From Sipunculus nudus (Eukaryota > Annelida > Sipuncula > Golfingiida > Sipunculidae): a stretch of 64,000 nucleotides of DNA. A model generated the notes under the pieces. The model ran no database searches, was not told the DNA's origin, and worked only from the letters and a program-made list of their open reading frames with translations. Position 1 is the first letter of the stretch. Every line of letters begins with the position of its first letter. Shown here piece by piece: positions 9,261 through 64,000 of the stretch. A program made the translations under genes and the position numbers. Location: contig CM049309.1 of NCBI GenBank assembly GCA_026874595.1, forward strand, positions 837,576 to 901,575, read 5' to 3'.

Positions 9261-9584
9261 ATATTTTTGCCAATATTTAAAAACATTTAACAGATTTTTT
9301 TATCTAATTTTTGTTATACAATTAAATTTTGAAGTTGTATTACTGAAAAAAAGTCCCTACCTTTAACACTTTTGGTCTTAAGTGACCAAATTTCTTTCCT
9401 GATTTTTTTACAAAGTCCATTATGTTTTGGCCCATAACTTTTTTAAATTAAATAATACTGACTTAATTTCTGACATGTACATAGGAACTATATAGAGGAA
9501 TATTTATGGTAAATATGAAGAAAACCAGATGAGTGGTTTTGATATTAGACAGTCCTGAAGTGTGAAAATAGATTTCTAATAAAA

Positions 9585-12500: not shown

Positions 12501-12750
12501 ATGGAACCTCTCATAATCAATATGTATGCCAGAAATCATGACCATCAGTCAAGTTGTTAATGAGATATTGAAGTTTTTGTATGAAATTTTGGACTTTTCT
12601 GGGGGGTACTTTGGGGCCCCATAGCTCGAAGATATGGGTAACAGAGACCTAATTTCTGGTTTCCAAGGAGATTTTTCATGGACCTCCCAGGATGTCAAGT
12701 AAGAAGATTCCAGTTCTAGCGGTTACCATTTGTGCCTGGTTAAAGGACAG

Positions 12751-12785
<35 letters not shown>

Positions 12786-14002
12786 GACGACGGACAAAGA
12801 GTGATCGCTATAGCTCAGATGACTTTCAGTCAGCTGAGCTAAAAATGAGGTTTATCCTTAATATCTCGAATGAACCAAGTCCTATTGACCATATTTTCGG
12901 CATGGTAGGAGATTTTTGGGACATCTAACTGTATGGCAAACTTCAGATCCGTAGGTCCAATGGTGTTGAAACGTGCCAGTCTTACAGACAGACATCTGGT
13001 CAAACGGACGGACAGACAGACGACGGACAATTGACCACGAGTATAACTCAGATGACTTATAGTCAGCCGAGCCGAAAAATTGTGAAAAATAAAAAAAATA
13101 CAGGTGGCGCCACCAGTCTGCAGAAACTGATGAAACACTCAATGATCAATATCCATGCAAATAATCATAGTTATCAATGCATTAGTTGTTCAGATACTTG
13201 AGCTTTTGTATCAAATTTTCCAATATTCTGGAGTGGGGATGGGGGGTGGTACTTTGAAGCCCCATAGCTCACAGGTTTTGGGTAACAGAGACCTAATTCC
13301 AGTTTTCCAAGGAGACTTTTCATGGGTCTCCCTGCATGTCGAGACAGATCATTCAGTCACTAATTTAGATTTATGCCCTATTAACAGATGAAGGCATCTT
13401 TTAAGGTCTCAAAAATAGAGGAAAAAATTGTTAAAAAAATTGAAAAAAAAATACAGGTGGCACTGCAAGTCTGCAGAAACGTATGAAACACTCCATGGTC
13501 ATATTCATTAAAAGAATCATGGTGATAAAAGCATAACTTGTTCAGATACTTGAGCTTTTGTATCAAATTTTCCATTATTCTGGGGGGTACTTTGAAACCC
13601 CATAGCTCACAGGTTTTGGACAACAGAGACCTTATTTTAGGTTTCCAAGGAGACTTTTTCTAGGCCTCCTTGCATGTCAAGAAAGAAGATTCTAGGTCCA
13701 GTCTTTACGATTTTTGCCCTGTTAACAGATGAATGCATCTTTAAAGGTCTAAAAAATAGAGAAAAAAGCTTAAAAATTGAAAAAATACAGGTGGCACCAC
13801 CAGTAACGAATATGGGTAACAGAGACATAATTCCAGGTTTCCAAGGAGATTTTCATGGACCTCTCTGGATATCATGTTAGAAGATTCCTGGTCCAACGGT
13901 TACGTTTTGTGCCCTGTTAACGGACGGACAGACACAGACAGACAGACGGATGACGGACAAAGAGTGATTGCTATACCTCAGATGACTTTCAGTCAGCTGA
14001 GC
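9585..14002 (+). mobile_element. composite array of CTCAGCTGA-family modules
   Basis: Opens with ACAAGTGACCCAGGGGTC (9585-9602) and GCTCAGCTGA, and closes with the family hairpin at 13976-14002. In between are about ten degenerate ~300-400-bp units, each running GGTGGCGCCACC, CTGCAGAAACTGATG, TGATCAATATCCATGC, CATTATTCTGGGGGGTACTT, ATATGGGTAACAGAGACC and CTAGGTCCAGT. Internal 3' hairpins sit at 10754-10782, about 11276-11300, 12812-12840 and 13045-13073, so several insertions or tandem unit gains are merged. No coding capacity. Confidence 0.75.
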
Positions 14003-31804: not shown

Positions 31805-32768
31805 TCAACTCCGTTTGCATGCAGTGATAAACACTCCAAGGACCCTTGTGTCTGCTCCTGTTTAGCCCATTGGTAGCAATTCTTGGGCCCGATATACAGA
31901 CCCCGCCTGTTACCCTCCATGGGCCCACATGTGTACACATGTTAGCCCAACGTCCTAGCCAACATTGGACCCGGGAGCAAAAAGTCACGGGTGCCCACGG
32001 GGTTAGCCCATATGGGGCCCATGGACATGTACCACAAGGGTCCCTTGTTTGCATGTAGTGACAAACCATCCAAGGACCCATGTGTTTTCCCCTGTTTAGC
32101 CCATTGGTAGCCATTCGTGGGCCCCAGATACAGACCCCGCCTGGTACCCTCCATGGGCCCACATGTGTACCCATGTTGGCCCCACGTCCTAGCCAACATT
32201 GGACCCGGGAGCAAAAAGTCACGGGTGCCCACGGGGTTAGCCCATATGGGGCCCATTGACATGTACCACAAGGGTCCCTTGTTTGCATGTAGTGACAAAC
32301 CCTCCAAGGACCCATGTGTCTGCCCCTGTTTAGCCCATTGATAGCCATTCGTGGGCCCCATATACAGACCCCGCCTGGTACCCTCCATGGGCCCACATGT
32401 ATACCCATGTTGGCCCCACGTCCTAGCCAACATTGGACCCGGGAGCAAAAAGTCACGGGTGCCCACGGGGTAAGCCAATATGGGGCCCATGGACATGTAC
32501 CTCAAGGGTCCCTTGTTTGCATGTAGTGACAAACCCTCCAAGGACCCTTGTGTCTGCCTCTGTTTAGCCCATTGGTAGCCATTCGTGGGCCCCATATACA
32601 GGCCCCACCTGGTACCCTCCATGGGCCCACATGTATACCCATGTTGGCCCCACGTCCTAGCCAACATTGGACCCGGGAGCAAAAAGTCACGGGCGCCCAC
32701 TGGGTTAGCCCATATGGGACCCATGGGTTTGTACATAATGGTCCCACATGGGTCCCTTGTTTGCATGC
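31805..32768 (-). repeat. 234-bp tandem repeat, four copies
   Basis: TTTGCATG(C/T)AGTGA recurs at about 31812, 32047, 32281 and 32515. Units are GC-rich and highly similar, with CCTCCATGGGCCCACATGT, CATTGGACCCGGGAGCAAAA and CACAAGGGTCCC. Because 234 is 78 codons, frames stay open on both strands (up to 274 residues), but none has a gene-like context. Confidence 0.92.
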
Positions 32769-39045: not shown

Positions 39046-40185
39046 GACGTTGTTGAAGACATCAAACCTCCGCCAGCAGTCACATAATGTTGTAATGGGT
39101 CAACAACCCTATCCCAGGCCACCTCCAGAATAAAGCGCCATGTAATAAATATCGACAGACTTTATTAATGAAATGAAATGTCATAATGGGAGAGTAGCCA
39201 TTAAACAAACATATGGTGAATAAGATTTCCTCATAAATTTCGTTGATTGTTCCTTAGTTGTTTTCCTAAATCCCCATATAATTTCAACATATTTTGTTTA
39301 TTACTTTTTTACGTAAATCAGACAGACAAACCGACAGTAAAATATTATATCTGGCAATTGTATGACAGACATTCGCCGTAGCGCGCTCACTGTGGGTCTG
39401 TTAGTATATGCATGACACTCTCTTCGGCCATATATCACATTTCGCCTCTTCAGGCTTATCATATCGTGATGACGATGAAGTATCGACACAAGTTCCACTA
39501 ATACCTGTCCTTACCTGCGTGTTTAACCTGTCTACAGTCGACATCCCGCTCACGGTAAAGGAGGGCTAATTACCTCTTAGATTCTTTCCTCTTACTCTCA
39601 GCAGACACTGTTGAAGGCACAAGGGGGTCCAGAGGTCCAGACCCCGCCACCTATTTTCAGCCGCCGCACCCTTTTTTTGACCAATTATCTACGACCTGGA
39701 CCCCCTCCCTTTAATGAACCTTAAGAATTATTTTAGGTCGTGTCATTAGTACCTGGGTTGGACCCCTCCTTTCCGAAATCCTGGAATCACCCCATTTACA
39801 GTCTAGAACAATAATGTCAGTCTATTGACAGGGATAAACACAATACGAATAATCTACTTTTCCTTATCGCAGACATCATATGGGATTTGGGCAATATTTA
39901 ACCTCTGAACATTGTAAGGCTTAACTATTAATATTTATCATTTACTTTTCCTTTCCTTTAACATGTTACATAAACTATATTATGTTCATGTATGGACACT
40001 CTATGCCACCTTTGGTCAGTGTATCACCAGAAAAGACAAATCTATTAGTCTTTGAATAATTATTTTATTACATGAATGCGATTAATATACACATATGACA
40101 AGGAACTATAATGCATAATGCATTTTGTTATATTATGAATTCCAGCAATCATACCTCCGCCGGAAACCTAATCACTTTTTTTATG
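39046..40185. other. gene-free stretch left of the large satellite
   Basis: Contains a degraded repeat at 39.62-39.79 kb rich in GACCCC and GGGGTCC words. No supported gene. Confidence 0.4.
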
Positions 40186-43100
40186 CTTTACATGGCGGCA
40201 CGGTTTATCAACGAGGTCCACCTTCCTATGATCTACACGGCGGCACGGTTCAACAACGAGGGTCACTTTCCTATGCTCTACATGGCGAAACGGTTTATAT
40301 ACGAGGTTCACTTTCCTATCCTCTACACGGCGGCACGGTTCATATACGAGGTCCACTTTCCTATCCTCTACATGGCAGCATGGTTTATATACGAGGTTCA
40401 CTTTCCTATGCTCTACACGGCGGCACGGTTCATATACGAAGTTCACTTTCCTATGCTCTTCATGGCGGCACGGTATATTTACGAGGTTCACTTTAATATG
40501 CTCTATACACGGCGGCACGGTTCAACAACGAGGTTCACTTTCCTATGCTCTACATGGCGACACGGTTTATATACGAGGTTCACTTTCCTATCCTCTTCAC
40601 GGCGACACGGTTCAACAACGAGGTTCACTTTCCTATGCTCTAAACGGCGGCATGGTTCATATACGAGGTTCACTTTCCCATGCTTACATGGCGGCACGGT
40701 TCAACAACGAGGTTCACTTTCCTATGCTCTACACGGCGGCACGGTTCAACAACGAGGTTCACTCTCCTATCCTCTACACGGCGGCACGGTTCATATACGA
40801 GGTTCACTTTCCTATGCTCTACACGGCGGCACGGTTCATATACGAGGTTCACTTTCCTATGCTCAACACGGCGGCACGGTTCATATACGAGGTTCACTTT
40901 CCTATGCTCTACACGGCGGCACGGTTCATATACGAGGTTCACTTTCCTATGCTCTACACGGCGGCACGGTTCATATACGAGGTTCACTTTCCTATGCTCT
41001 ACACGGCGGCACGGTTCATATACGAGGTTCACTTTCCTATGTTCTACACGGCGGCACGGTTCATATACGAGGTTCACTTTCCTATGCTCTACCCGGCGGC
41101 ACGGTTCATATACGAAGTTCACTTTCCTATGCTCTACACGGCGGCACGGTTCATATACGAGGTTCACTTTCCTATGCTCTACACGGCGGCACGGTTCATA
41201 TACGAGGTTCACTTTCCTATGCTCTACACGGCGGCACGGTTCATATACGAGGTTCACTTTCCTATCCTCTACACGGCGGCACGGTTCAACAACGAGGTTC
41301 ACTTTCCTATGCTCTTCACGGCGGCACTGTTCATATACGAAGTTCACTTTCCTATGCTCTACACGGCGGCACTGTTCATATACGAAGTTCACTTTCCTAT
41401 GCTCTACACGGCGGCACGGTTCATATACGAGGTTCACTTTCCTATGCTCTACACGGCGGCACGGTTCATATACGAGGTTCACTTTCCCATGCTCTACACG
41501 GCGGCACGGTTCATATACGAGGTTCACTTTCCTATGCTCTACACGGCGGCACGGTTCAACAACGAGGTTCACTCTCCTATCCTCTACACGGCGGCACGGT
41601 TCATATACGAGGTTCACTTTCCTATGCTCTACACGGCGGCACGGTTCATATACGAGGTTCACTTTCCTATGCTCAACACGGCGGCACGGTTCATATACGA
41701 GGTTCACTTTCCTATGCTCTACACGGCGGCACGGTTCATATACGAGGTTCACTTTCCTATGCTCTACACGGCGGCACGGTTCATATACGAGGTTCACTTT
41801 CCTATGCTCTACACGGCGGCACGGTTCATATACGAGGTTCACTTTCCTATGCTCTACACGGCGGCACGGTTCATTTACGAGGTTCACTTTCCTATGCTCT
41901 ACACGGCGGCACGGTTCATATACGAGGTTCACTTTCCTATGCTCTACACGGCGGCACGGTTCATATACGAGGTTCACTTTCCTATGCTCTACACGGCGGC
42001 ACGGTTCATATACGAGGTTCACTTTCCTATGCTCTACACGGCGGCACGGTTCATATACGAGGTACACTTTCCTATCCTCTACACGGCGGCACGGTTCAAC
42101 AACGAGGTTCACTTTCCTATGCTCTTCACGGCGGCACTGTTCATATACGAAGTTCACTTTCCTATGCTCTACACGGCGGCACTGTTCATATACGAAGTTC
42201 ACTTTCCTATGCTCTACACGGCGGCACGGTTCATATACGAGGTTCACTTTCCTATGCTCTACACGGCGGCACGGTTCATATACGAGGTTCACTTTCCTAT
42301 GCTCTACACGGCGGCACGGTTCATATACGAGGTTCACTTTCCTATGCTCTACACGGCGGCACGGTTCATATACGAGGTTCACTTTCCTATGCTCTACACG
42401 GCGGCACGGTTCATATACGAGGTTCACTTTCCTATGCTCTACACGGCGGCACGGTTCATATACGAAGTTCACTTTCCTATGCTCTACACGGCGGCACGGT
42501 TCATATACGAAGTTCACTTTCCTATGCTCTACACGGCGGCACGGTTCATATACGAGGTTCACTTTCCTATGCTCTACACGGCGGCACGGTTCATATACGA
42601 GGTTCACTTTCCTATGCTCTACACGGCGGCACGGTTCATATACGAGGTTCACTTTCCTATGCTCTACACGGCGGCACGGTTCATATACGAAGTTCATTTT
42701 CCTATCCTCTACACGGCGGCACGGTTCAACAACGAGGTTCACTTTCCTATGCTCTTCACGGCGGCACTGTTCATATACGAAGTTCACTTTCCTATGCTCT
42801 ACACGGCGGCACGGTTCATATACGAGGTTCACTTTCCTATGCTCTACACGGCGGCACGGTTCATATACGAGGTTCACTTTCCTATGCTCTACACGGCGGC
42901 ACGGTTCATATACGAGGTTCACTTTCCTATGCTCTACACGGCGGCACGGTTCAAATACGAGGTTCACTTTCCTATGCTCTACACGGCGGCACGGTTCATA
43001 TACGAGGTTCACTTTCCTATGCTCTTCACGGCGGCACGGTTCATATACGAGGTTCACTTTCCTATGCTCTACACGGCGGCACGGTTCATATACGAGGTTC

Positions 43101-46100
43101 ACTATCCTATGCTCTACACGGCGGCACGGTTCATATACGAGGTTCACTTTCCTATGCTCTACACGGCGGCACGGTTCAACAACGAGGTTCACTTTCCTAT
43201 GCTCTACACGGCGGCACGGTTCATATACGAGGTTCACTTTCCTATGCTCTACACGGCGGCACGGTTCATATACGAGGTTCACTTTCCTATGCTCTACACG
43301 GCGGCACGGTTCATATACGAAGTTCACTTTCCTATCCTCTACACGGCGGCACGGTTCATATACGAGGTTCACTTTCCTATGCTCTACACGGCGGCACGGT
43401 TCATATACGAGGTTCACTTTCCTATGCTCTACACGGCGGCACGGTTCATATACGAGGTTCACTTTCCTATGCTCTACATGGCGGCACGGTTCATATACGA
43501 GGTTCACTTTCCTATGCTCTACACGGCGGCACGGTTCATATACGAAGTTCACTTTCCTATGCTCTACACGGCGGCACGGTTCATATACGAGGTTCACTTT
43601 CCTATGCTCTACACAGCGGCACGGTTCATATACGAAGTTCACTTTCCTATGCTCTACATGGCGGCACGGTTCATATACGAGGTTCACTTTCCTATGCTTT
43701 ACACGGCGGCACGGTTCATATACGAGGTTCACTTTCCTATGCTCTACACGGCGGCACGGTTCATATCCGAGGTTCACTTTCCTATGCTCTACACGGCGGC
43801 ACGGTTCATATACGAGGTTCACTTTCCTATGCTCTACATGGCGGCACGGTTCATATACGAGGTTCACTTTCCTATGCTCTACACGGCGGCACGGTTCAAC
43901 AACGAGGTTCACTCTCCTATCCTCTACACGGCGGCACGGTTCATATACGAGGTTCACTTTCCTATGCTCTACACGGCGGCACGGTTCATATACGAGGTTC
44001 ACTTTCCTATGCTCAACACGGCGGCACGGTTCATATACGAGGTTCACTTTCCTATGCTCTACACGGCGGCACGGTTCATATACGAGGTTCACTTTCCTAT
44101 GCTCTACACGGCGGCACGGTTCATATACGAGGTTCACTTTCCTATGCTCTACACGGCGGCACGGTTCATATACGAGGTTCACTTTCCTATGTTCTACACG
44201 GCGGCACGGTTCATATACGAGGTTCACTTTCCTATGCTCTACCCGGCGGCACGGTTCATATACGAAGTTCACTTTCCTATGCTCTACACGGCGGCACGGT
44301 TCATATACGAGGTTCACTTTCCTATGCTCTACACGGCGGCACGGTTCATATACGAGGTTCACTTTCCTATGCTCTACACGGCGGCACGGTTCATATACGA
44401 GGTTCACTTTCCTATCCTCTACACGGCGGCACGGTTCAACAACGAGGTTCACTTTCCTATGCTCTTCACGGCGGCACTGTTCATATACGAAGTTCACTTT
44501 CCTATGCTCTACACGGCGGCACTGTTCATATACGAAGTTCACTTTCCTATGCTCTACACGGCGGCACGGTTCATATACGAGGTTCACTTTCCTATGCTCT
44601 ACACGGCGGCACGGTTCATATACGAGGTTCACTTTCCCATGCTCTACACGGCGGCACGGTTCATATACGAGGTTCACTTTCCTATGCTCTACACGGCGGC
44701 ACGGTTCAACAACGAGGTTCACTCTCCTATCCTCTACACGGCGGCACGGTTCATATACGAGGTTCACTTTCCTATGCTCTACACGGCGGCACGGTTCATA
44801 TACGAGGTTCACTTTCCTATGCTCAACACGGCGGCACGGTTCATATACGAGGTTCACTTTCCTATGCTCTACACGGCGGCACGGTTCATATACGAGGTTC
44901 ACTTTCCTATGCTCTACACGGCGGCACGGTTCATATACGAGGTTCACTTTCCTATGCTCTACACGGCGGCACGGTTCATATACGAGGTTCACTTTCCTAT
45001 GCTCTACACGGCGGCACGGTTCATTTACGAGGTTCACTTTCCTATGCTCTACACGGCGGCACGGTTCATATACGAGGTTCACTTTCCTATGCTCTACACG
45101 GCGGCACGGTTCATATACGAGGTTCACTTTCCTATGCTCTACACGGCGGCACGGTTCATATACGAGGTTCACTTTCCTATGCTCTACACGGCGGCACGGT
45201 TCATATACGAGGTACACTTTCCTATCCTCTACACGGCGGCACGGTTCAACAACGAGGTTCACTTTCCTATGCTCTTCACGGCGGCACTGTTCATATACGA
45301 AGTTCACTTTCCTATGCTCTACACGGCGGCACTGTTCATATACGAAGTTCACTTTCCTATGCTCTACACGGCGGCACGGTTCATATACGAGGTTCACTTT
45401 CCTATGCTCTACACGGCGGCACGGTTCATATACGAGGTTCACTTTCCTATGCTCTACACGGCGGCACGGTTCATATACGAGGTTCACTTTCCTATGCTCT
45501 ACACGGCGGCACGGTTCATATACGAGGTTCACTTTCCTATGCTCTACACGGCGGCACGGTTCATATACGAGGTTCACTTTCCTATGCTCTACACGGCGGC
45601 ACGGTTCATATACGAAGTTCACTTTCCTATGCTCTACACGGCGGCACGGTTCATATACGAAGTTCACTTTCCTATGCTCTACACGGCGGCACGGTTCATA
45701 TACGAGGTTCACTTTCCTATGCTCTACACGGCGGCACGGTTCATATACGAGGTTCACTTTCCTATGCTCTACACGGCGGCACGGTTCATATACGAGGTTC
45801 ACTTTCCTATGCTCTACACGGCGGCACGGTTCATATACGAAGTTCATTTTCCTATCCTCTACACGGCGGCACGGTTCAACAACGAGGTTCACTTTCCTAT
45901 GCTCTTCACGGCGGCACTGTTCATATACGAAGTTCACTTTCCTATGCTCTACACGGCGGCACGGTTCATATACGAGGTTCACTTTCCTATGCTCTACACG
46001 GCGGCACGGTTCATATACGAGGTTCACTTTCCTATGCTCTACACGGCGGCACGGTTCATATACGAGGTTCACTTTCCTATGCTCTACACGGCGGCACGGT

Positions 46101-49100
46101 TCAACAACGAGGTTCACTTTCCTATGCTCTACACGGCGGCACGGTTCATATACGAGGTTCACTTTCCTATGCTCTTCACGGCGGCACGGTTCATATACGA
46201 GGTTCACTTTCCTATGCTGTACACGGCGGCACGGTTCATATACGAGGTTCACTATCCTATGCTCTACACGGCGGCACGGTTCATATACGAGGTTCACTTT
46301 CCTATGCTCTACACGGCGGCACGGTTCAACAACGAGGTTCACTTTCCTATGCTCTACACGGCGGCACGGTTCATATACGAGGTTCACTTTCCTATGCTCT
46401 ACACGGCGGCACGGTTCATATACGAGGTTCACTTTCCTATGCTCTACACGGCGGCACGGTTCATATACGAAGTTCACTTTCCTATCCTCTACACGGCGGC
46501 ACGGTTCATATACGAGGTTCACTTTCCTATGCTCTACACGGCGGCACGGTTCATATACGAGGTTCACTTTCCTATGCTCTACACGGCGGCACGGTTCATA
46601 TACGAGGTTCACTTTCCTATGCTCTACATGGCGGCACGGTTCATATACGAGGTTCACTTTCCTATGCTCTACACGGCGGCACGGTTCATATACGAAGTTC
46701 ACTTTCCTATGCTCTACACGGCGGCACGGTTCATATACGAGGTTCACTTTCCTATGCTCTACACAGCGGCACGGTTCATATACGAAGTTCACTTTCCTAT
46801 GCTCTACATGGCGGCACGGTTCATATACGAGGTTCACTTTCCTATGCTTTACACGGCGGCACGGTTCATATACGAGGTTCACTTTCCTATGCTCTACACG
46901 GCGGCACGGTTCATATCCGAGGTTCACTTTCCTATGCTCTACACGGCGGCACGGTTCATATACGAGGTTCACTTTCCTATGCTCTACATGGCGGCACGGT
47001 TCATATACGAGGTTCACTTTCCTATGCTCTACACGGCGGCACGGTTCATATACGAAGTTCACTTTCCTATACTCTACACGGCGGCACGGTTCATATACGA
47101 AGTTCACTTTCCTATGCTCTACATGGCGGCACGGTTCATATACGAGGTTCACTTTCCTATGCTCTACACACGGCGGCACGGTTCATATACGAGGTTCACT
47201 TTCCTATGCTCTACACGGCGGCACGGTTCATATTCGAGGTTCACTTTCCTATGCTCTACATGGCGGCACGGTTCATATACGAGGTTCACTTTCCTATGCT
47301 CTACACGGCGGCACTGTTCATATACGAGGTTCACTTTCCTATGCTCTACACGGCGGCACGGTTCATATACGAGGTTCACTATCCTATGCTCTACACGGCG
47401 GCACGGTTCATATACGAGGTTCACTTTCCTATGCTCTACACGGCGGCACGGTTCATATACGAGGTTCACTTTCCTATGCTCTACACGGCGGCACGGTTCA
47501 TATACGAGATTCACTATCCTATGCTCTACACGGCGGCACGGTTCATATACGAGGTTCACTTTCCTATGCTCCACACGGCGGCACGGTTCATATACGAGGT
47601 TCACTATCCTATGCTCTACACGGCGGCAATGTTCATATACGAGGTTCACTTTCCTATGCTCTACACGGCGGCACGGTTCATATACGAGGTTCACTTTCCT
47701 ATGCTCTACACGGCGGCACGGTTCATATACGAAATTCACTTTCCTATGCTCTACATGGCGGCACGGTTCATATAGGAGGTTCACTTTCCTATGCTCTACA
47801 CGGCGGCACGGTTCATATACGAGGTTCACTTTCCTATGCTCTACACGGCGGCACGGTTCATATACGAGGTTCACTTTCCTATGCTCTACACGGCGGCACG
47901 GTTCATATACGAGGTTCACTTTCCTATGCTCTACAGGGCGGCACGGTTCATATACGAGGTTCACTATCCTATGCTCTACACGGCGGCACGGTTCATATAC
48001 GAGGTTCACTCTCCTATCCTCTACACGGCGGCACGGTTCATATACGAGGTTCACTTTCCTATGCTCTACACAGCGGCACGGTTCATATACGAGGTTCACT
48101 TTCCTATGCTCTACACACGGCGGCACGGTTCATAAACGAGGTTCACTTTCCTATGCTCTACACGGCGGCACGGTTCATATACGAGGTTCACTTTCCTATG
48201 CTCTACATGGCGGCACGGTTCATATACGAAGTTCACTTTCCTATGCTCTACACGGCGGCACGGTTCATATACGAGGTTCACTTTCCTATGCTCTACACGG
48301 TGGCACGGTTCATATACGAGGTTCACTTTCCTGTGCTCTACACGGCGGCACGGTTCATATACGAGGTTCACTTTCCTATGCTCCACACGGCGGCACGGTT
48401 CATATACGAGGTTCACTATCCTATGCTCTACACGGCGGCAATGTTCATATACGAGGTTCACTTTCCTATGCTCTACACGGCGGCACGGTTCATATACGAG
48501 GTTCACTTTCCTATGCTCTACACGGCGGCACGGTTCATATACGAGGTTCACTATCCTATGCTCTACACGGCGGCACGGTTCATATACGAGGTTCACTCTC
48601 CTATCCTCTACACGGCGGCACGGTTCATATACGAGGTTCACTTTCCTATGCTCTACACAGCGGCACGGTTCATATACGAGGTTCACTTTCCTCTGCTCTA
48701 CACGGCCGCAGGGTTCATATATGAGGTTCACTTTCCTATGCTCTACACGGCGGCACGGTTCATATACGAGGTTCACGTCCCTATGCTCTACACGGCGGCA
48801 CGGTTCATATACGAGGTTCACTTTCCTATGCTCTACACGGTGGCACGGTTCATATACGAGGTTCACTTTCCTATGCTCTACACGGCGGCACGGTTCATAT
48901 ACGAGGTTCACTTTCCTATGCTCTACACGGCGGCAATGTTCATATACGAGGTTCACTTTCCTATGCTCTACACGGCGGCAATGTTCATATACGAGGTTCA
49001 CTTTCCTATGCTCTACACGGCGGCACGGTTCAACAACGAGGTTCACTTTCCTATCCTCTTCACGGCGGCACGGTTCAACAACGAGGTTCACTTTCCTATG

Positions 49101-49557
49101 CTCTACACGGCGGCACGGTTCATATACGAGGTTCACTTTCCTATGCTCTACACGGCGGCACGGTTCATATACGAGGTTCACTTTCCTATGCTCGGCACGG
49201 TTCATATACGAGGTTCACTTTCCTATGCTCTACACAGCGGCACGGTTCATATACGAGGTTCACTTTCCAATGCTCTACACGGCGGCACGGTTCATATACG
49301 AAGTTCACTTTCCTATGCTCTACATGGCGGCACGGTTCAACAACGAGGTTCACTTTCCTATCCTCTTCACGGCGGCACGGTTCAACAACGAGGTTCACTT
49401 TCCTATGCTCTACACGGCGGCACGGTTCATATACGAGGTTCACTTTCCTATGCTCTACACAGCGGCACGGTTCATATACGAAGTTCACTTTCCTATTCAT
49501 ATACGAGGTTCACTTTCCTATGCTCTACACAGCGGCACGGTTCATATACGAGGTTCT
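40186..49557. repeat. 9.4-kb satellite of 45-bp monomers (~208 copies) with nested higher-order repeats
   Basis: The monomer has parts CTACACGGCGGCACGG, TTCATATACGAGGTT and CACTTTCCTATG. Edge monomers (40.19-40.70 and 49.19-49.56 kb) are the most diverged and irregular. The core is homogenised: an 810-bp (18-mer) period, a 630-bp (14-mer) spacing, and two almost identical 3150-bp (70-mer) blocks. The consensus has no stop in all three plus frames and one minus frame, giving open frames of up to 2982 codons (15-residue unit LYTAARFIYEVHFPM and its frame-shifted versions). Two-base insertions at about 40505, 47165 and 48114 move the array between frames, so no frame is conserved. I treat it as non-coding satellite. 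Confidence 0.97.
40710..47040. repeat. 3150-bp higher-order repeat, two tandem copies
   Basis: Rare variant monomers recur exactly 3150 bp apart: CCCGGCGGC at 41092/44242, CTCAACACG at 40862/44012 and 41672/44822, CATATCCGA at 43762/46912, ACAGCGGC at 43613/46763, TTCCCAT at 41484/44634. I noticed only two differing monomers by eye (about 42950 vs 46100, and 43068 vs 46218). This marks a very recent duplication of a 70-monomer block. Confidence 0.93.
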
Positions 49558-49559
49558 TA

Positions 49560-52400
49560 TTGACCGACAGAGCAAGGAAACAGCAATACTGGCGAATTTC
49601 CTTAGCCCTCGGCATGAATAAAAAATGAAAATCCATTGAAGGATATATCGTATTGATTCAGATTTTCTCCACATTTTAAGGATTCTTCCTTGGGGTTAAA
49701 TTAACACGGCACATAATTTCATCAAAACCCTTTAATTTTCTTTGAATAAAGTTGCATTATAAAAATAAACTTTTTTTGCGACTTCCAGATGAGACAAGAA
49801 TGAAAAGTTTATTTAATATAAGGACAAAGTATGATCTGAATAATATTTGCAGGTTTTAAACATTATTCTGTAAATATAAGTTGACATAGGGGTTGTAGGC
49901 CGGTTTGAAAATGTGTAGCCTTTTTTCACGATTAACAAATGCTGTCATATGATCATCTCTTGCACCTAGCTGTTACAACGGTTTGAGAATAAACTTTATC
50001 TGTGTCTGTCTCTGTGTTAAAATAGCATTAAGGTTGAAATGCTATTGTAAGCGCATTTTTATTTGATAGTTTTAGCATATCTGCATTTGCTTTTGATTCA
50101 TTTAAAATATTTTCATTTGCATTTAAATGAGCCAAGATTCTCCAATGCATTTGATCCCAGCCCTGCAGGTGACTAAAACAGGCACACTAAGGGGCGTACT
50201 CGTGACCAGGTCAGCGTAATTATCTGTATAATTGGCAATTAATTCCATATTAAAGTAATTAAAGTGAACTAATAGCCACAGACGTATGATGTATCCGTTA
50301 AATAAAATTGTAAAAGTTATGCCTTTTATGATTTTATTTAAATTTAGTAAAAGTGCCAGTGGTTATTGTAATTGTTGAAGCAAAAGTTTAAGTAACAGTA
50401 CTATTAATAATAAAAGATTTTTTAGTGCTAAGAGTAAAAATAGTGACTGTAAGTGGAGGAAACATTAGTTCATGTAGTATTAGAGGTATAACAGTTTCAC
50501 TATAGTATGTAGCAATAGTTGTACAGAAGTAGTGGTTGTAATAATAGACACAGGAGCAGTAACACAGACAGCACAGCATGGTGCTAATTATCAAGACAGA
50601 AATGAACAGTTCAGCTAGAATTACGAGAGGAGTACAGAACTAGGTGTGTAGCTGTGACCTTTATTTGTATGTGTAATCTACAATACAATCTGTTCATCCC
50701 CTTCAGAGCATGCTATTTTCATCTTGTGCATACTTTATATCAACACCAATATCGGCCCTGACACTTAAACCCAAGTAATTACAGCCTGGGGTTAGGATAT
50801 TTTCTTGTACTTCAAAAGTAGGCGTCTCGGCGGTTGCAGTGATATAGTACGGTTATTATCATCTCCAAGCCCGAGACAGAAGCCGACTACATAAGAAGCT
50901 GTCGTAAGATATACAACTGGTGATAATTAGCTTCTAATATTCCGGTTCAAGGGTTTGGTAATCTTATGAACTGCACATGATACTTATAATATATCAGACT
51001 TGACCTTCGGTCAAAATATATTTACATTGGTATCTATATGTAAAGAATGTCGAAGCGCTAATCGGTTGGGCACTATATGCATGTTATATATGTATAGTAC
51101 CAATTTCATCATTCCAAATTTTACTACCTTGACTGATTTTTACATGGAATATAATACCTGAGATATATATTAATAGTGAAATGGAAGATATATACCGGTA
51201 ATTTTCCTGTGTACTTGAGCGGTTGAGCGGATAGATATCTGTATCAATGTATTAATAAATAAGTGATCCATTTAAGTCAAGTGAATTGTATTTTAAAACA
51301 AATATAGACTTCGTTATAAATTTATTAAAAAAAATAAAAAAAATATGTTACAGCTTCATCATAATATTATCTTCCGAAACCCTTTATAAAGTTATACCGA
51401 AGCTCAGATAAAAAGGACTTCAAAGAGATTTAATGACCAATGAACTTCCAGAATACTGATCAAAGTCTTAATATTCTAGATGGAATAAATAGGTTTACAA
51501 CTTATTTTTCTTCTTTAAACTACGTTCAATGTAAAATATTTTTTTTCTATTAATATGGTAACCTATAGTCAATCAACATTAAAAAAACAGACTTGATACA
51601 TGGTGCAGAAGCAAAGGTAGGGATTGTGGGAACACCTGTGTTGGCATGGTAACACAGAAGATAAAGCAAAACCTTTTGTGTACAGTTACGTTGAGTAAGA
51701 TTGATATTATCTTATCTATTTTAGTGAATCTAAAAAATTTCGAATATTATAATAATATCTGAATATTTTCAATGTAACCTTTGGTGGTTGTTTCATGTAA
51801 CATAGCGGGTCTGGCAGTGATGTAGCATGCACTCGCGTCCGAACTCGAGTACACTTTTTCAGGGACTCACCGGGACGGATGTAGGCTCATGAGGCCCCTG
51901 GCTGCACTTAAAGTAGGGACCTTTTCATCAAATTGATAACGTGTACAATTTAACAAGAAAATCTGTTAAACGGAATTATAATTTTTGGACTATCGTTAAC
52001 ATTATGTAATACTTTGTATGCGGATTATGATTTTGACATACTTAATATTAAAGAATTAAGTAGCATGTTCACATCACAGAAATTTAGTGAAGTTACGAAT
52101 TCATTAAAAATAGCGTATCATAATGTCAATTAAGACGTCGAGACTAGGGGACTATAATAAGGAGTAGGGCCAACGTAGGAAAATAATATACTATCGCTGA
52201 ATTCCTTGGACGTTCATAAACTTTTTTTTTTATTTTTAACAGCACTAATGGATTTAATGAATTCGTTGATTCAGAACTGTTCTTGTATTTCGCCATCAAT
52301 GGAGAAATCCAGTGTTTGGTCTCAAGAGCGATTTTCTCTAGCAGTCGTTTTGTCTTCTTTATTTATATCCCTTCTTCTGGGCATTTATACCTTCATTCAC
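49560..52400. other. gene-free AT-rich stretch
   Basis: Unique AT-rich DNA between the two satellites. An open frame at 52206-52454 (plus) follows a strong pyrimidine tract and CAG (about 52242) and contains a hydrophobic helix (FSLAVVLSSLFISLLLGIY), but it overlaps the minus-strand exon candidate and has no partner exon. Nothing else was supported. Confidence 0.4.
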
Positions 52401-53192: not shown

Positions 53193-55938
53193 CTGATCAG
53201 GGTCTGTCATACAGGGTCTGTCATATATTGTATGTCATACAGGGTCTGTCAAACAGGGCATGTCTTACAGGGTCTATCATACAGGGTCGGTCATACAGGG
53301 TCTGTCATACAGGGTCGGTCATACAGGGTCTCTCATACAGGGTCTGTTATACAGGGTCTCTCATACAGGGTCGGTCATACAGGGTCGGTCATAGGGGGCC
53401 CGTAATACAGGGTCCGTAATACAGGGTCTGTCATATATTGTATGTCATACAGGGTCTGTCAAACAGGGCATGTCTTACAGGGTCTATCATACAGGGTCGG
53501 TCATACAGGGTCTGTCATACAGGGTCGGTCATACAGGGTCTCTCATACAGGGTCTGTTATACAGGGTCTCTCATACAGGGTCGGTCATACAGGGTCGGTC
53601 ATAGGGGGCCCGTAATACAGGGTCCGTAATACAGGGTCTGTCATATATTGTATGTCATACAGGGTCTGTCAAACAGGGCATGTCTTACAGGGTCTATCAT
53701 ACAGGGTCGGTCATACAGGGTCTGTCATACAGGGTCGGTCATACAGGGTCTCTCATACAGGGTCTGTTATACAGGGTCTCTCATACAGGGTCGGTCATAC
53801 AGGGTCGGTCATAGGGGGCCCGTAATACAGGGTCCGTAATACAGGGTCTGTCATATATTGTATGTCATACAGGGTCTGTCAAACAGGGCATGTCTTACAG
53901 GGTCTATCATACAGGGTCGGTCATACAGGGTCTGTCATACAGGGTCGGTCATACAGGGTCTGTCATACAGGGTCCGTAATACAGGGTCTCTCATACAGGG
54001 TATGTCAAACAGGGTATGTCTTACAGGGTCTGTCATACAGGGTCTGTCATACAGGGTACGTCATGCAGGGTCCGTAATACAGGGTCTGTCATATAGGGTA
54101 TGTCATACAGGGTATGTCATAGAGGGTCTGTCATAAAGGGTCTGTCATACAGGGTCCGTAATACAGGGTCTGTCATACAGGGTCCGTAATACAGGGTCTC
54201 TCATACAGGGTCTGTCAAACAGGGTATGTCTTACAGGGTCTGTCATACAGGGTACGTCATACAGGGTCTGTCATACAGGGTCCGTAATACAGGGTCTGTC
54301 ATATAGGGTATGTCACACAGGGTATGTCATATAAGGTCTGTCATGCAGGGTCCGTAATACAGGGTATGTCATATAGGGTATGTCATACAGGGTATGTCAT
54401 AGAGGGTCTGTCATAAAGGGTCTGTCATACAGGTTCTGTCATACAGGGTCCGTAATACAGGGTCTGTCAAACAGGATATGTCTTACAGGGTCTGTTATAC
54501 AGGGTACGTCATATTGGGGGGGTCATACAGGGTCCGTAATACAGGGTCTCTCATACAGGGTACGTCAAACAGGGTATGTCCTACAGGATCTGTCTACAGG
54601 GTCCGTAATACAGGATCTGTCATACAGGGTCTGTCAAACAGGGTATGCCTTACAAGGTCTGTCATACAGGGTCTGTCATACAGGTTCTGTCATACAGGGT
54701 CCGTAATACAGGGTCTCTCATACAGGGTCCGTCAAACAGGGTATGTCTTACAGGGTCTGTCATACAGGGTACGTCATACAGGGACTGTCATACAGGGTCC
54801 GTAATACAGGATCTCTCATACAGGGTCTGTCAAACAGGGTATGTCTTACAGGGTCTGTCATACAGGGTCGGTAATACAGGATCTGTCATACAAGGTCTGT
54901 CAAACAGGGTATGCCTTACAAGGTCTGTCATACAGTGTCGGTCATACAGGGTCTGTCATACAAGGTCGGTCATACAGGGTCTCTCATACAGGGTCTGTCA
55001 AACAGGGTATGTCTTACAGGGTCTGTCAGACAGGGTCTGTCATACAGGGTACGTCATGCATGGTCCGTAATACAGGGTCTGTCATACAGGGTCGGTCATA
55101 CAGGGTACGTAATACAGGGTCCGTAGTACAGGGTCTGTCATACAGGGTCGGTCATACAGGGTACGTCATACAGGGTCCGTAATACAGGGTCTGTCAAACA
55201 GGGTATGCCTTACAAGGTCTGTCATACAGGGTCGGTCATACAGGGTCGGTCATACAGGGTCGGTCATACAGGGTACGTTATACAGGGTCCGTAATACAGG
55301 GTCTGTCATATAGGGCTGTCAAACAGGATATGTCTTACAGGGTCTGTCATACAGGGTATGTCAAACAGGGTATGCCTTACAAGGTCTGTCATACAGGGTC
55401 GGTCATACAGGGTACGTTATACAGGGTCCGTAGTACAGGGTCTGTCATACAGGGTCGGTCATACAGGGTACGTCATACAGGGTCCGTAATACAGGGTCTG
55501 TCATATAGGGTCTGTCAAACAGGATATGTCTTACACGGTCCGTAATACAATATTGTACATCTTGGTTCAGTTTGAACACTAGATTCTCATTAGGGTATGT
55601 CAAACAGGGTATGTCATACAGGGTATGTCATATAGGGTCTGTCATACAGGGTCCGTAATACAGGGTCTGTCATACAGGGTCCGTAATACAGGGTCTGTCA
55701 AAAGGGTCTGTCAAACAGGGTCCGTAATACAGGGTCTGTCATTCAGGGTCTGTCAAACAGGATATGTCCTCCAGGGTTTGTCATACAGGGTCTCTCATAC
55801 AGGATCTGTCATACAGGGTATGTCATACAGGGTTCGTCTTACAGGATCTGTCATACAGGGTATGTCATACAGGGTTCGTCTTACAGGATCTGTCATACAG
55901 GGTCTGTCATACAAGGTCTGTCATACAGGGTCTGTCAG
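53193..55938 (+). repeat. 2.75-kb satellite of 14-bp monomers (~195 copies)
   Basis: The monomer is GGTCTGTCATACAG with recurring variants (GGTCCGTAATACAG, GGTATGTCATACAG, GGTCGGTCATACAG, GGTCTGTCAAACAG). 53211-53840 holds three identical 210-bp (15-mer) blocks plus a partial fourth. The rest is a looser mixture. A ~45-bp island of left-flank DNA interrupts the array at about 55550-55595. Open frames of up to 148 codons follow from the 42-bp (3 x 14) frame cycle and are not genes. Confidence 0.96.
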
Positions 55939-59392: not shown

Positions 59393-60425
59393 CAGCAATA
59401 TAACACGGATCAAATGCATGGTACGGATTCAACCGTGACACCAAAATGCTTCTGTCTTTCATGTACCTGGTCTTTTGGTTTTTAACCGCTTCATACGTGG
59501 TCCATTTATATCTGTGAAGACTTTATGTTATGCAGACGAGTAACGCTGGGTAACAAATTTGTGCAGTTTTAAAAGTTCTTTAAAATATACCATGGATCAA
59601 TGGAAACGTATAATGTATACATAAACCTATATTGTAGGTATATGAGGAGTTTGGTGATCTTGGCCAGAAATAGGCCCTGCGAACCTTACCATACTTTTAA
59701 AATACACACTCAAACTTTGATCTGTTTAATTTGAAGGCTTGGTCATAGGCTTCAAAATATGTAGACTGGTCTTTTGCAGAAATGTACAGTCAAACTCTCT
59801 TTTTATTGGTGTCGGTTACATATAAAATGAATTTGAATTTAACGCTAAACACAGTCGCTTGAATCCTGAATTGTAATTGTAGGAGTAAATGGAAATAATA
59901 CAAACAGAGCAAAGAAAAAAAGGGTTTGGACACCTCTTTAGTAATACACGCTATACATAAGGCACGTCAATCGATAAAAACACAACCACAAATAGGGATT
60001 CAAGCGACTGTGACGCTAATTAAACAAATTGCTGGTGAAGACCTTTCTTAAATGAATATAACGTGGTCCACCCTAATTGGCAATTACATAGTTTATTCGC
60101 TCACTTTCATGGTTATCTGCAGAGTTGACTGTTCTAGAAGAGGCATTCCCACGGCAACTACTCAAGTATTGCAAAAGCGCCACCATGAACAGCGTGTATG
60201 AACTTTTGTGCGTGTGGGTGCATGTATGTGTGTGTGCCTTTTTTACGATGTCACATTTATTCCTGTTCTCAAGGACAGCGGCATTTAGGTGTGTGTATTT
60301 GTGTATGTTTGTGTATGTGTGTGTGCTTTTTTGGATGTCATATTCACACCTGTTCTCACGTACGGCTGCTGCTGAGTGTGTATGTGTGTGTGATGGTGTG
60401 TGTGTCTGAGTGTCAGCACACTCAC
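58983..60425 (-). other. odd-skipped last intron
   Basis: About 1.44-kb intron. It contains a long (TA)n tract at 59331-59392, a duplicated ~43-bp AT-rich segment at 59.18-59.26 kb (ATTTCATTAAATTTTATATT occurs twice), and TG-rich sequence at 60.2-60.42 kb. No coding signal was seen in it. Confidence 0.7.
59331..59392. repeat. (TA)n microsatellite
   Basis: About 30 TA dinucleotides in the last odd-skipped intron. Confidence 0.95.
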
Positions 60426-60525
60426 CTGCTCGTGGGTAGCCCTGTGTACTGTCAGTGTTCGTGATTGACAGAATCCCTTTCCACACACGTCACACGTAAA
60501 CGGCTTCTGCTCAGCGTGAATATAT
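60426..60525 (-). CDS. osr: odd-skipped family zinc-finger factor, exon with end of finger 2 and finger 3
   Basis: 100-bp internal exon. The acceptor is TTTTAG (60526-60531) and the donor is GTGAGT (60420-60425). The first base completes the arginine codon split from the upstream exon (AG|A), giving HRYIH at the end of finger 2, then linker AEQKPFT, then finger 3 containing [21 protein letters not shown] and [12 protein letters not shown] is diagnostic of odd-skipped proteins. The reading phase fits both neighbours exactly (1 + 33 codons), which supports real splicing. The downstream intron starts in CA-rich simple sequence on the minus strand, next to the donor. Confidence 0.92.
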
Positions 60526-60841
60526 CTAAAATATAAGTATTATAGTGTTATAGGTATACATGAATTAATTTATCTATAATGTATTCATTACACCGATGTA
60601 GGTAGGCATAACTTTATGTATCTCAATTGTAATCATTACATTAATATAGGTGGCAATGACTTAATGAATCTAAAAATCAAGCGAATTTGTATTTTTAATA
60701 TAAGCGGGCATGCCTATATACCACGTGTGGTATGCATGCACCATGAGAGTAATTGTTAACATAATTTTGTTGTATATTTCATCAGTAAAAATTTTCTTAT
60801 GCTTATATAAGATAAACAGATAAAAGATCTAAGGTTCACAA

Positions 60842-60945
60842 TTCCATTATCTATGTCAGAGACAGAGAGACAGACAGACAGACAGACAGACTGATAGACA
60901 GACAGGCAGGCAGGCAGAAAGACAGACAGATAGACATACAGATAC
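60842..60945. repeat. (GACA)n / (GGCA)n microsatellite
   Basis: Tetranucleotide tract in an odd-skipped intron. Confidence 0.95.
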
Positions 60946-61888
60946 GCTCTTTACACAGCGCTTTACCTATAAGGCTACTTCCTATATCGTAAGGCGCTGT
61001 TTGTTATGACCTCGTATCCTGCTTTGCAACACCAGAGGGGAGCACTGTATTTTTGTCCAATCAGATGAAACTGTGTGCTGGAAGACAAAGCCAAGCGAGG
61101 AATACACGGAGCCAATCATATTCATTTCTTTTTGTGTGACAGCTCATCCCCAGCGTAACCGTCTAAACAGGCCACAGGCTCAGAGAGAATGGCCCCTGAC
61201 GTGGTTTGCCTAGGGCCTTGGGCACATAGGATGCTCGGCCGGTGAGCTGTAATTCAAACGAAACGTAACAACAAAGGCTGCGTGCCCACCTCGCTGGCTG
61301 GTTTCAGTTCTGCAGACAACAGATCCATGGCTACGCTAACACAGTCATAATGTCATAATCGAATCGGTCGATGATGCGAGAATGCAGAGGGAGCAATTTA
61401 AATTCGACCGGAAACTCATCAAACGGCGCTTGAAGCGCGGCAATGGGCGGAGCCAGAATGCCTGTCGAGTGTTTGTTTATTGGCATCTGATTGGCTGCTT
61501 GTCGCATCAGGCTGCTTGTACGTACGTTTATTTCAGTGGACAACAAACCGCCATCTGGTGTCCAAATATATCATAAACGGTCAAAGCTGGCAGCGTGAAA
61601 ATCAGTTGCTTCTTTAGAAGCGCAAGATTTCCGCTGCCTCGGGAGCGTAACATACAGAATAAATTGATATTTCGTGTATGGTAACAAATATAACTGAATA
61701 GGTTTTATCATAGAAATATGTTAAATCAAATGAGGAACCATTTATACGATATATGTCAAAATGTTGGAAAAAACGAAGACGGATAAAATAGAAAATAAGG
61801 CAGTTAAAGGGTGGCGGTCACAGAAAATCACCTCCTAAGAGAAACCTGAATTAAATCCAACAAAATATTAGGAAAAAGGGAGGCAACT

Positions 61889-62308
61889 AGTGGTGTGCCA
61901 ATGTATTGTTCGATTACATCAATGATTGGTCGTTTTCTTTCATACTCGATTAGATCAATTGCATTTTGCATAATCGATTACAATCGATTATGTATGCAGA
62001 CCGGAAGAAGTCATATCATCCCGATAAAATATTCTGATCCTGTCAGAGATATATAACAACCACAGGGCAAAAACAGCGAGTAACATTAATACTTAACCTT
62101 GTGCATTGAATAAGTGTCAACAAACTGGTCATTACCATGACTATCTAGCGTGATGTACTACTGACTGAATTAACTCGGTCAATATTTTAGATCTAATTCT
62201 ATACAGCAGATTTCACGGTTATATGGGTGGTACATAAAATTCCCAATTAATAATCGATCATCGCTCTTTTTTTTATCTTTCAGTCATCGAATATGATTTT
62301 ACAACCAA
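61889..62308 (+). mobile_element. hAT-like MITE, second copy, in odd-skipped intron
   Basis: Starts near CTAGTGGTGTGCCAATGT, carries TTGCATTTTGCATAATCG and ATCCTGTCAGAGATAT, and ends near CGAATATGATTTTACAACC. It is the inverted, more diverged relative of the element at 31000-31402. Confidence 0.5.
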
Positions 62309-62365
62309 TTCCTGCCACTAGAGGCGGTATTTGGGTGAATGCATGACGTCACATCCGGTGATTAC

Positions 62366-62527
62366 CTGTGATCTCGGAGATGATCTCGTCGTCGGAAGGC
62401 TTTACCACATATGTCGCACGAGAACGGGCGCTCGTCAGTGTGGGTCCTCTCGTGTATTAACAGGTTGTAAGATTTACTGAAGTCTCGCTGGCAGTGTCGA
62501 CAGGTGTAACGCCGCTTCAATTTAGAT
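62366..62527 (-). CDS. osr: odd-skipped family zinc-finger factor, exon with fingers 1-2 (5' part of gene outside window)
   Basis: Sequence-specific DNA-binding nuclear transcription factor of the odd-skipped (odd/bowl/sob, OSR1/OSR2) family. Read on the minus strand, the exon follows an acceptor ending TTTTAAG at 62528-62530 and ends at a GTAATC donor (62360-62365). It encodes 53 codons plus split codons. Finger 1 is C-x2-C-x12-H-x3-H and carries the family hallmark [12 protein letters not shown]; the linker TDERPFS is also typical; finger 2 contains [17 protein letters not shown], with its last histidine on the next exon. These strings are near-identical to my memory of Drosophila Odd and vertebrate OSR proteins, so the family call is strong. 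Which paralogue (odd, bowl or sob type) cannot be told from this part. The N-terminal exon was not found in 62.5-64 kb. Family members act in segmentation, gut, leg-joint and kidney or limb development; the role in this animal is inference. Confidence 0.93.
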
Positions 62528-64000
62528 CTTAAAACGAAAATAAATACACCTTAATATATGTTCCTAATAAAACTTAAGTAATCTGCTGGCGTGGTACGGG
62601 CATTTTATTGTTAAATATTTGAACTTATTACGTGACGCCAGAGTCTGTACTTGAACACAGATAAAGGATAAAATACCAAGTGACAGTTACTACATAAGAA
62701 ATGTAATATATCATTTTCTGCTATTGATTTGTTGGAAATATCAATCCTTAATGCATACACAATGTCACTATATCTTCAAACATATCCAGTTATATGTAGA
62801 TTAAGTGGTTAAAACCTGAATAATAAATCACTTGTATTCAACATTCCTCCCGTCCTGTTTTTCTTGTTATATTGATGATTATGTAAATAAGGAACAAAAA
62901 ATACGACACTACATGGTTGCATCACCGTCTACCTCGCTTGTGTGAATATAACTCCATACAATTCAATGAATACGTTGATTCTTTCTTGCGATATTCTAAT
63001 AAAGACTGTAGCAGCCCATATTGATTGGATAATTCCATATTCAGAAATGGTCTTACTTGAGGATGGTTTTGATGGTATTCGTCTCGTGTGGTTGATGCTC
63101 CAAGCCACTTGGTCGGATATTTTTCTTACTGCACAGATAAAAATAATAGCACTCATTATAGCAGGCTATAAGAATGGACTCCTCTGTTGCTTTTTTAGTG
63201 CCTGGCGCAATGTGGAGTCTATAAACTGCACCTGCAGTTCCCTATGATTATATCACTCCCTTAACAGCTGTGCGATTTAACATATTTACATTGATTAATG
63301 GTCAGTACATGTATGTGTACTGGATATTTGACCATTGAAAAACATTACAGTCCAATTCGCAGCACTATTTTGCAGCAAGGAAGTTAAAATATGTACTTAA
63401 TGTACACAGACCTGATCCATTATACAGCTTCGCTGTCAAATATAAGATGGCTACCGGGCTGTATATGCTTCATTCCTCTCTGGACAAATAAATCAGTTAT
63501 TGATGCTCTACAGGTGCTTTATGCTGTAGCCAGGAAGAAATCATATAATTAATATACCATTATAAATTTTACAGCTTACTCGAATTTCTTCCATGTGCGC
63601 TAATACACGTATTCCCGTACATGGTCAGATATATACGCATACGCATTAACTGGCAGAAGTATGCAGTGTTAAAGTGTATTAGGCAGATCTTCCAAAAATA
63701 AATGCTGGCATGACGTCATTTTACCGGGATAACTTGAGTAATGCAGACCCAATGCGTGAAAATCGTTCCTGCGGCGATTTTCTCGAGTATAAGGACATAC
63801 GCATATACGCTGACGGACACATAGATACATTATATATGTAGTAAGATGTGAAATTCTTTCACGCATATACACTCACATATAGAAACAAAGCTTTAAACAA
63901 ATATCCTAAATAAGAAAAACCCTTAATGTGTGTGAAGGTGGAGACTTTGCTTCTCACCTCTCTGTTTCTTTATATCCTAACCCCTTAGAGTGTGTGAAGG
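62528..64000. other. stretch upstream of the first visible odd-skipped exon
   Basis: AT-rich. No exon matching the conserved odd-skipped N-terminus was recognised. Overlapping open frames on both strands at 62929-63247 are unrecognised. It is presumably an intron of the odd-skipped gene. Confidence 0.45.

Follow-up and report, generated by a model that had tools for sequence, protein, structure and literature searches.

The 45-bp tandem array described here lies in a 64,000-nucleotide stretch of Sipunculus nudus DNA, all of which was analysed (the window), and is probably a non-coding minisatellite which arose in a fast burst and was afterwards modified by mutation, a few exchanges and two nested in-register duplications. 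Tandem Repeats Finder and monomer decomposition placed the array at positions 40182-49556, close to the limits of the initial annotation (40186-49557); Tandem Repeats Finder reported a 45-bp row at 40182-49496 and two overlapping rows reaching 49556. By wrap-around alignment the array consists of 209 monomers of 45 bp over a length of about 9.4 kb, with the consensus monomer TATGCTCTACACGGCGGCACGGTTCATATACGAGGTTCACTTTCC. The monomers fell into 59 distinct types, 32 of which occurred once, and 85 of the 209 (0.41) were identical to the consensus. All the positions quoted in the initial annotation were confirmed by reading the sequence. The array and its parts, with monomers numbered from 0 and without assignment to a strand, are as follows.

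40182-49556: whole 45-bp tandem array, 209 monomers (Tandem Repeats Finder, monomer decomposition, composition)
40182-40722: diverged left edge, monomers 0-11, rich in CAACAA (decomposition, composition, Fisher test)
40723-43872: 70-monomer (3150-bp) block, copy one, monomers 12-81 (lag-3150 comparison)
43873-47022: 3150-bp block, copy two, monomers 82-151 (3 differences from copy one; score reached in 0 of 400 shuffles)
40707-41487: older 18-monomer (810-bp) duplication, copy one, undoubted matching part (5 mismatches to the positions 810 bp further on)
41517-42297: 810-bp duplication, copy two (lag-810 comparison)
42073-42162: two-monomer cassette, monomers 42-43, present again at 42703-42792; the entire "630-bp level" (decomposition, shuffles)
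47023-49006: right arm with small echoes, monomers 164-166/182-184 and 173-175/186-188 (decomposition, shuffles, gapped alignment)
49007-49556: right edge, truncated monomers and a short duplication, monomers 196-197/203-204, 7 apart (decomposition, shuffles)

The larger duplication was evident when the array was compared with itself at a lag of 3150 bp. There were 3 mismatches in 3150 bp, at 42955, 42956 and 43069 against the positions 3150 bp further on, and when extended from the edges of the block the exact match reached 40707 and 43898. The matched stretch at this lag was 3192 bp, exceeding the lag by 42 bp, and a breakpoint ambiguity of this size, about one monomer, is what a single in-register tandem duplication or exchange predicts. 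The score at lag 70 was 73.1, whereas across 400 shuffles of the monomer order (performed on monomers 0-204, that is, 205 of the 209) no lag scored above 11.7. A stricter score based on exact monomers gave 55.8 at lag 70 and 6.0 at lag 18, with a maximum of 5.2 in 500 shuffles. The 70-monomer repeat claimed in the initial annotation is real as one tandem duplication with 3 differences. The two adjacent differences at 42955-42956 mark the change between CAAATA and CAACAA; as the latter variant is frequent in other parts of the array, a short conversion tract is possible at this site.

The 18-monomer repeat proposed earlier was also found, with CTCAACACG present at both 40862 and 41672. At lag 810 we counted 5 mismatches (41042, 41065, 41093, 41116 and 41254) over 781 bp (40707-41487), monomers 12-28 being matched to monomers 30-46. 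The score at lag 18 was 13.2 against a maximum of 11.7 in 400 shuffles of monomers 0-204, and it was above all 400 shuffles also within monomers 0-81 and within 12-81 alone. Three of the five differences (C5T, A11C and G34A) lie on one side and two (A28T and T37A) on the other; they are located in monomers 19, 20, 37 and 41 and are repeated in monomers 89, 90, 107 and 111. As all five are present in both 3150-bp copies, the 810-bp duplication is older than the 3150-bp one. Given the assembly, an 18-monomer segment was thus duplicated in register, its copies diverged at five sites, and a 70-monomer segment holding both was then duplicated. Per lineage, 0.84 events per 45 bp correspond to a divergence of about 1.9% since the burst; halving the 5 differences in 781 bp and the 3 in 3150 bp gives about 0.32% since the 810-bp duplication and about 0.05% since the 3150-bp one. 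These figures come from small counts and are to be read as relative ages.

We propose the following course of events. A single 45-bp monomer type would have been amplified fast, in a burst, to about 100 copies. The burst would have taken place within a pre-existing, more varied array, of which the two edges would be the remains. After the burst, the copies would have gathered point mutations and undergone a limited number of exchanges. Two of these exchanges would have been large, giving the 18-monomer and then the 70-monomer duplication, presumably by unequal exchange or by a comparable repair of breaks inside the array.

For the analysis of the edges and the centre, the array was collapsed, i.e. 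the second copies of both duplications were removed by hand. Monomers 205-208 were dropped, CAACAA and C20A/G21T were each scored as a single event, and 95 monomers were left in the collapsed centre. The contrast of diverged edges and a homogeneous centre noted in the initial annotation was clear in the whole array: the mean number of departures from the consensus was 4.5 in monomers 0-9 and 5.6 in the last nine monomers, truncated units counted, versus 0.7-1.5 across the ten-monomer bins between the edges. In the collapsed array, with 13 monomers per end taken as edge and monomers 205-208 left out, the CAACAA type accounted for 10 of the 26 edge monomers and for 3 of the 91 others (Fisher p 1.1e-5). 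Substitutions became fewer towards the middle of the array (rho -0.33 with distance to the nearest edge, p 2e-4), but this correlation was gone when the first 13 and last 9 monomers were removed (rho -0.04, p 0.67), which indicates that the edges are older and mixed and that the centre is flat, with no gradient.

The collapsed centre itself was roughly star-like. It carried 0.84 events per monomer with a variance of 0.72, and the counts of events per monomer (38, 38, 16, 2 and 1) were near the Poisson expectation (40.9, 34.5, 14.5, 4.1 and 0.9). Singletons made up 19 of the 33 variants. Neighbouring monomers shared no more than chance: at lag 1 there were 5 shared variants versus 3.7 by shuffling, and 591 of 2000 shuffles reached 5.

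How much exchange is compatible with such a centre was examined in simulations, which started from identical copies and in which mutations were drawn at the observed variant frequencies; recurrent variants thus behave like mutational hot spots, and this tilts the outcome towards the star-like reading. With small exchanges at 0, 0.02, 0.05, 0.1, 0.2, 0.5 and 1 per mutation, neighbour sharing (measured here over lags 1-3) was no higher than observed in 67, 67, 58, 37, 19, 1 and 0 of 100 runs, respectively. When exchanges of 1-25 monomers were allowed, the same measure gave 28-67 of 100 runs and did not discriminate. In these runs singletons were as frequent as observed in 2 of 100 at 0.5 exchanges per mutation and in 1 of 100 at 1, and distinct types were as many as observed in 25 and 3 of 100, so that under the large-exchange model frequent exchange is excluded only by singletons together with distinct types and not by neighbour sharing. 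The observed fraction of distinct types was 0.38, and a fraction of at least 0.38 was seen in 98 of 100 runs without exchange (median 0.44); medians of 0.38 and 0.39 were obtained at about 0.5 small and at 0.2 large exchanges per mutation. Since distinct types are low compared with the no-exchange runs, some exchange seems to have occurred, and the limit that can be set on it is loose. A pure star without exchange is disfavoured under these models, and a rate of roughly 0.1-0.2 exchanges per mutation would fit all three measures.

Some traces of smaller exchanges may be seen in the array. The 630-bp level described in the initial annotation is present in the sense that GGTTCAACAACG occurs at 41283, 42093 and 42723, but it amounts to the two-monomer cassette and nothing larger. 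The match at lag 14 comprises two monomers (42-43 with 56-57) and was reached by 55 of 400 shuffles of the whole array, by 9 of 400 within monomers 0-81 and by 15 of 400 within monomers 12-81. In the collapsed centre, where 24 lags were tested, lag 14 gave 11 shared variants versus 3.2 (0 of 2000 shuffles) and lag 13 gave 9 versus 3.2 (9 of 2000 shuffles); 5 of the 11 at lag 14 came from the cassette (24-25 with 56-57 in the collapsed order) and the other 6 from variants common across the array.

Similarly, the 812-bp echo could be read in the sequence, with CCACACGG at 47571 and 48383, but it failed the ungapped test, in which 389 of 400 shuffles reached it. Its spacing is 812 because monomer 176 holds a 2-bp insertion, as found by monomer decomposition. 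In the right arm, lag 18 (164-166 with 182-184) and lag 13 were each reached by 389 of 400 right-arm shuffles, and lag 7 (196-197 with 203-204) was reached by 0 of 400 right-arm shuffles and by 44 of 400 on the whole array. By the exact-monomer score, lag 13 (173-175 with 186-188) gave 5.3 versus a maximum of 5.2 in 500 shuffles. Gapped self-alignment of the 117 collapsed monomers gave best scores of 11.6 (ends 197/204), 9.0 (183/194) and 8.7 (175/188), with a maximum of 7.95 in 40 shuffles. A few short echoes besides the two large duplications therefore look real.

These echoes would also suit another explanation, that the array is kept homogeneous by continual unequal exchange in small steps or by slippage, and that the large duplications are simply the largest recent events of this process. 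We consider this rather unlikely. It agrees with the diverged edges, with the right-arm echoes at lag 7, at lag 13 and in the gapped alignment (11.6, 9.0 and 8.7), and with the number of distinct types, which suits moderate exchange better than none; a neutral model moreover yields near-identical blocks of at least 20 monomers in 8-17 of 30 runs per setting. Blocks of at least 60 monomers appeared in 0-1 of 30 runs per setting of an earlier exchange simulation, so a duplication of the 70-monomer size is not routine in that model. What speaks against steady exchange is the collapsed centre, with its lack of excess neighbour sharing, near-Poisson counts and many singletons, and also the equilibrium model, in which the median number of distinct types was 20 at a consensus fraction of 0.24 and 11 at 0.49, versus the 59 observed at 0.41. 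In the equilibrium simulation only 15-20 of 30 runs per setting ended with edges that exceeded the centre in divergence, because edges receive no special treatment in this model; the outcome bears neither way on the argument from the edges. Of the reading given in the initial annotation, the in-register duplications of 70 and 18 monomers are supported; steady, frequent exchange as the homogenising force is doubtful (1 of 100 runs at 0.5 small exchanges per mutation).

It is unlikely, too, that the 3150-bp duplication is an artefact of the assembly, made of two haplotype versions or a mis-joined repeat path. The small number of differences, 3 in 3150 bp with two of them adjacent, would be in line with such an origin, and arrays of this length, about 9.4 kb, are difficult for short reads. 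Nothing in the sequence points to an artefact or away from one, and a second array in the window has an exact multi-monomer block of its own, so this behaviour is seen at more than one place, although the same artefact could affect both arrays.

53198-55937, no strand: second tandem array, 14-bp unit CAGGGTCTGTCATA, 210-bp block (lag-210 comparison)

The left part of the second array is made of about 3.6 tandem copies of a 210-bp (15-monomer) block and matches itself without a mismatch for 543 bp at lag 210. The second array resembles the 45-bp array in being tandem, in having a multi-monomer block and in its exactness on a large scale; it differs in that its block is repeated about 3.6 times in tandem, and it is nearer to a higher-order repeat than the 45-bp array.

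That a Helitron or another mobile element carried the 45-bp array appears very unlikely. A report on molluscs assigns some satellite repeats and their flanks to Helitrons (PMC5139131). Against carriage of this kind, the 2-kb flanks of the array had in common only short stretches of weak similarity, the best of them 33 bp at 85% (E 0.002), and no second copy of the 500-bp flanks turned up in the window outside 40100-49600. A two-monomer query likewise found no match in the window outside 40100-49600. A 33-base piece of the monomer had 0 exact matches in the viral and prokaryote collections, a result which is uninformative about animals, and four short pieces of the monomer were not found as printed letters in the literature searched.

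The initial annotation had compared the array with centromeric alpha satellite and described a three-level higher-order structure. This description did not hold for the array as assembled, in which the block is present twice and the 810-bp level is one older duplication inside it. We regard it as highly improbable that the array is a true higher-order satellite, with a multi-monomer unit of amplification and a function in chromosome segregation, even if the exact monomer multiples, the uniform centre and the diverged edges are common to both. In an alpha-satellite higher-order repeat the monomers within a unit are clearly diverged and the units are near-identical, and a CENP-B box is expected in some of the monomers. 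The monomers of the 45-bp array are, in contrast, nearly identical inside the block, with 0-4 changes from a single consensus across monomers 12-151; the 70-monomer block exists in two copies with a single older 18-monomer duplication, and the 9.4-kb array lies beside a gene. No CENP-B-like box was found in the array with the core pattern that we took for this box, allowing at most one mismatch; the whole window had one match (679-693, outside the array) versus 5.9 expected. Two copies of the block also contrast with the hundreds to thousands that PMC9859433 gives for alpha-satellite higher-order blocks. The "higher-order" look is the record of two nested duplications with no repeating higher-order unit, and nested duplications of this type should not be termed higher-order structure. 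The array is an ordinary non-coding repeat and is not centromere-like.

The closest class is that of the minisatellites. Human hypervariable minisatellites with interspersed variant repeats have been mapped by MVR-PCR, and the 45-bp array shares with them a short unit, a kilobase-scale array, interspersed variant monomers, in-register segment duplications and the lack of a coding signal. It differs from them in its length, about 9.4 kb being long for the class, and in the little sign of small-step turnover in its centre. The 45-bp unit, in 209 copies, is within the range of about 10-100 bp that PMC5615363 gives for minisatellites.

A coding repeat under selection, with a 15-residue unit, is practically out of the question: the array is open in three forward frames (stop-to-stop lengths of 2558, 2830 and 2994 codons) and one reverse frame, but long open frames follow automatically from a unit length divisible by 3 and a consensus free of stops in the frames concerned. 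Per forward frame, stops among the distinct variants numbered 1, 2 and 2 (expected 1.9, 1.5 and 1.8) and synonymous changes 14, 15 and 11 (expected 15.6, 12.0 and 14.4), and there are frame-shifting indels inside the array. Pfam was run on one slice of 240-300 aa per open frame in four frames; DUF1622 and rpo132 were above the cut-off in one frame, but their scores were built up from numerous small pieces, none of which passed by itself, and other matches were below the cut-off. Coding function was rejected on the basis of the stop, synonymous-change and frame-shift tests together with Pfam on the four slices.

A ribozyme or structured RNA was also rejected. Rfam gave 0 matches in the window at the gathering score, hammerhead and other ribozyme families included, and a two-monomer RNA folded no better than shuffles (z 1.43 and 0.00 for the two strands); a tRNA search of the sequence found none. 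The motif GGTTCA, which resembles nuclear-receptor half-sites, occurs twice per consensus monomer and 359 times in the array. As 4 of the 12 half-site positions were among the 10 invariant positions of 45, there was no clear extra conservation and the idea was dropped.

The array has a GC content of 0.50 and is dense in CpG, with 83.7 per kb versus 20.1 per kb in the window outside the two arrays and a CpG observed/expected ratio of 1.35 versus 0.61. The high density is due to the four CpGs of the monomer. Among 121 kept monomers, C>T or G>A changes at CpG numbered 26 events at 8 sites, and those at other C/G positions 32 events at 15 sites. We also noticed that a single CpG of the monomer's four accounts for 20 of the 26 CpG-type changes. 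The CpG density of the array may or may not be of consequence.

The initial annotation had placed the array near a developmental gene. In a gene search that was not exhaustive we found a gene of this type on the minus strand, with the second array situated between it and the 45-bp array.

60288-62550, minus strand: odd-skipped-related-like C2H2 zinc-finger gene, fingers 1-2 at 62365-62550 and finger 3 at 60288-60539 (Pfam zf-C2H2, PDB 2ee8)

The C2H2 fingers encoded by its two exons suggest an animal genome. The 45-bp array is about 10.7 kb from the last finger exon, on the 3' side of the gene. Each exon matched PDB 2ee8 (odd-skipped-related 2) in a single stretch, and the two places in the chain adjoin: residues 7-62 of the first exon fell on 10-65 of the chain, and residues 4-41 of the second on 64-101. 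By total score 2ee8 ranked eighth for the first exon (among the best 60 of 157 matches) and fourth for the second (of 56 matches), being outranked by multi-finger proteins because many fingers sum; for the second exon, a stretch passed alone in just 2 of the 56 matches, 2ee8 included. These stretch matches, together with features that we take to be typical of the family, suggest that the gene is odd-skipped-related-like. Ten further open frames had no Pfam match at E 0.01, and most of the 205 listed open frames were inspected by eye alone. In the literature searched there was no paper combining "odd-skipped related" with "minisatellite".

Arrays of this broad type are well known from animal genomes, so the array alone alters little. 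We are doubtful that it can be taken as a dated record of saltatory amplification, with a near-star burst, little small-step turnover and two rare large in-register duplications; were this to hold generally, rare jumps, and not steady unequal exchange, would be the way in which large tandem arrays expand in genomes of this kind. The interest of the array is that the order and relative timing of the amplification and of the 810-bp and 3150-bp duplications can be read from a single locus, which also allows a loose bound on small-step exchange. The same doubtful reading extends to its CpG density, by which the array could provide an unmethylated platform on the downstream side of the odd-skipped-related-like gene.

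Other features were seen elsewhere in the window. At 1750-2430 there is a plus-strand open frame of 227 codons without a Pfam match at E 0.01; on visual inspection it resembles the C-terminus of a tyrosine recombinase. At 31813-32726 a 234-bp unit is repeated in 3.9 copies with a 94% match and contains two overlapping open minus-strand frames of 233 and 287 codons, the 233-codon frame having no Pfam match at E 0.1. Finally, a cluster of tandem repeats with long units of 278, 166, 336 and 338 bp was found at 8507-13804, in which segments seem, by eye, to be related across several kilobases.
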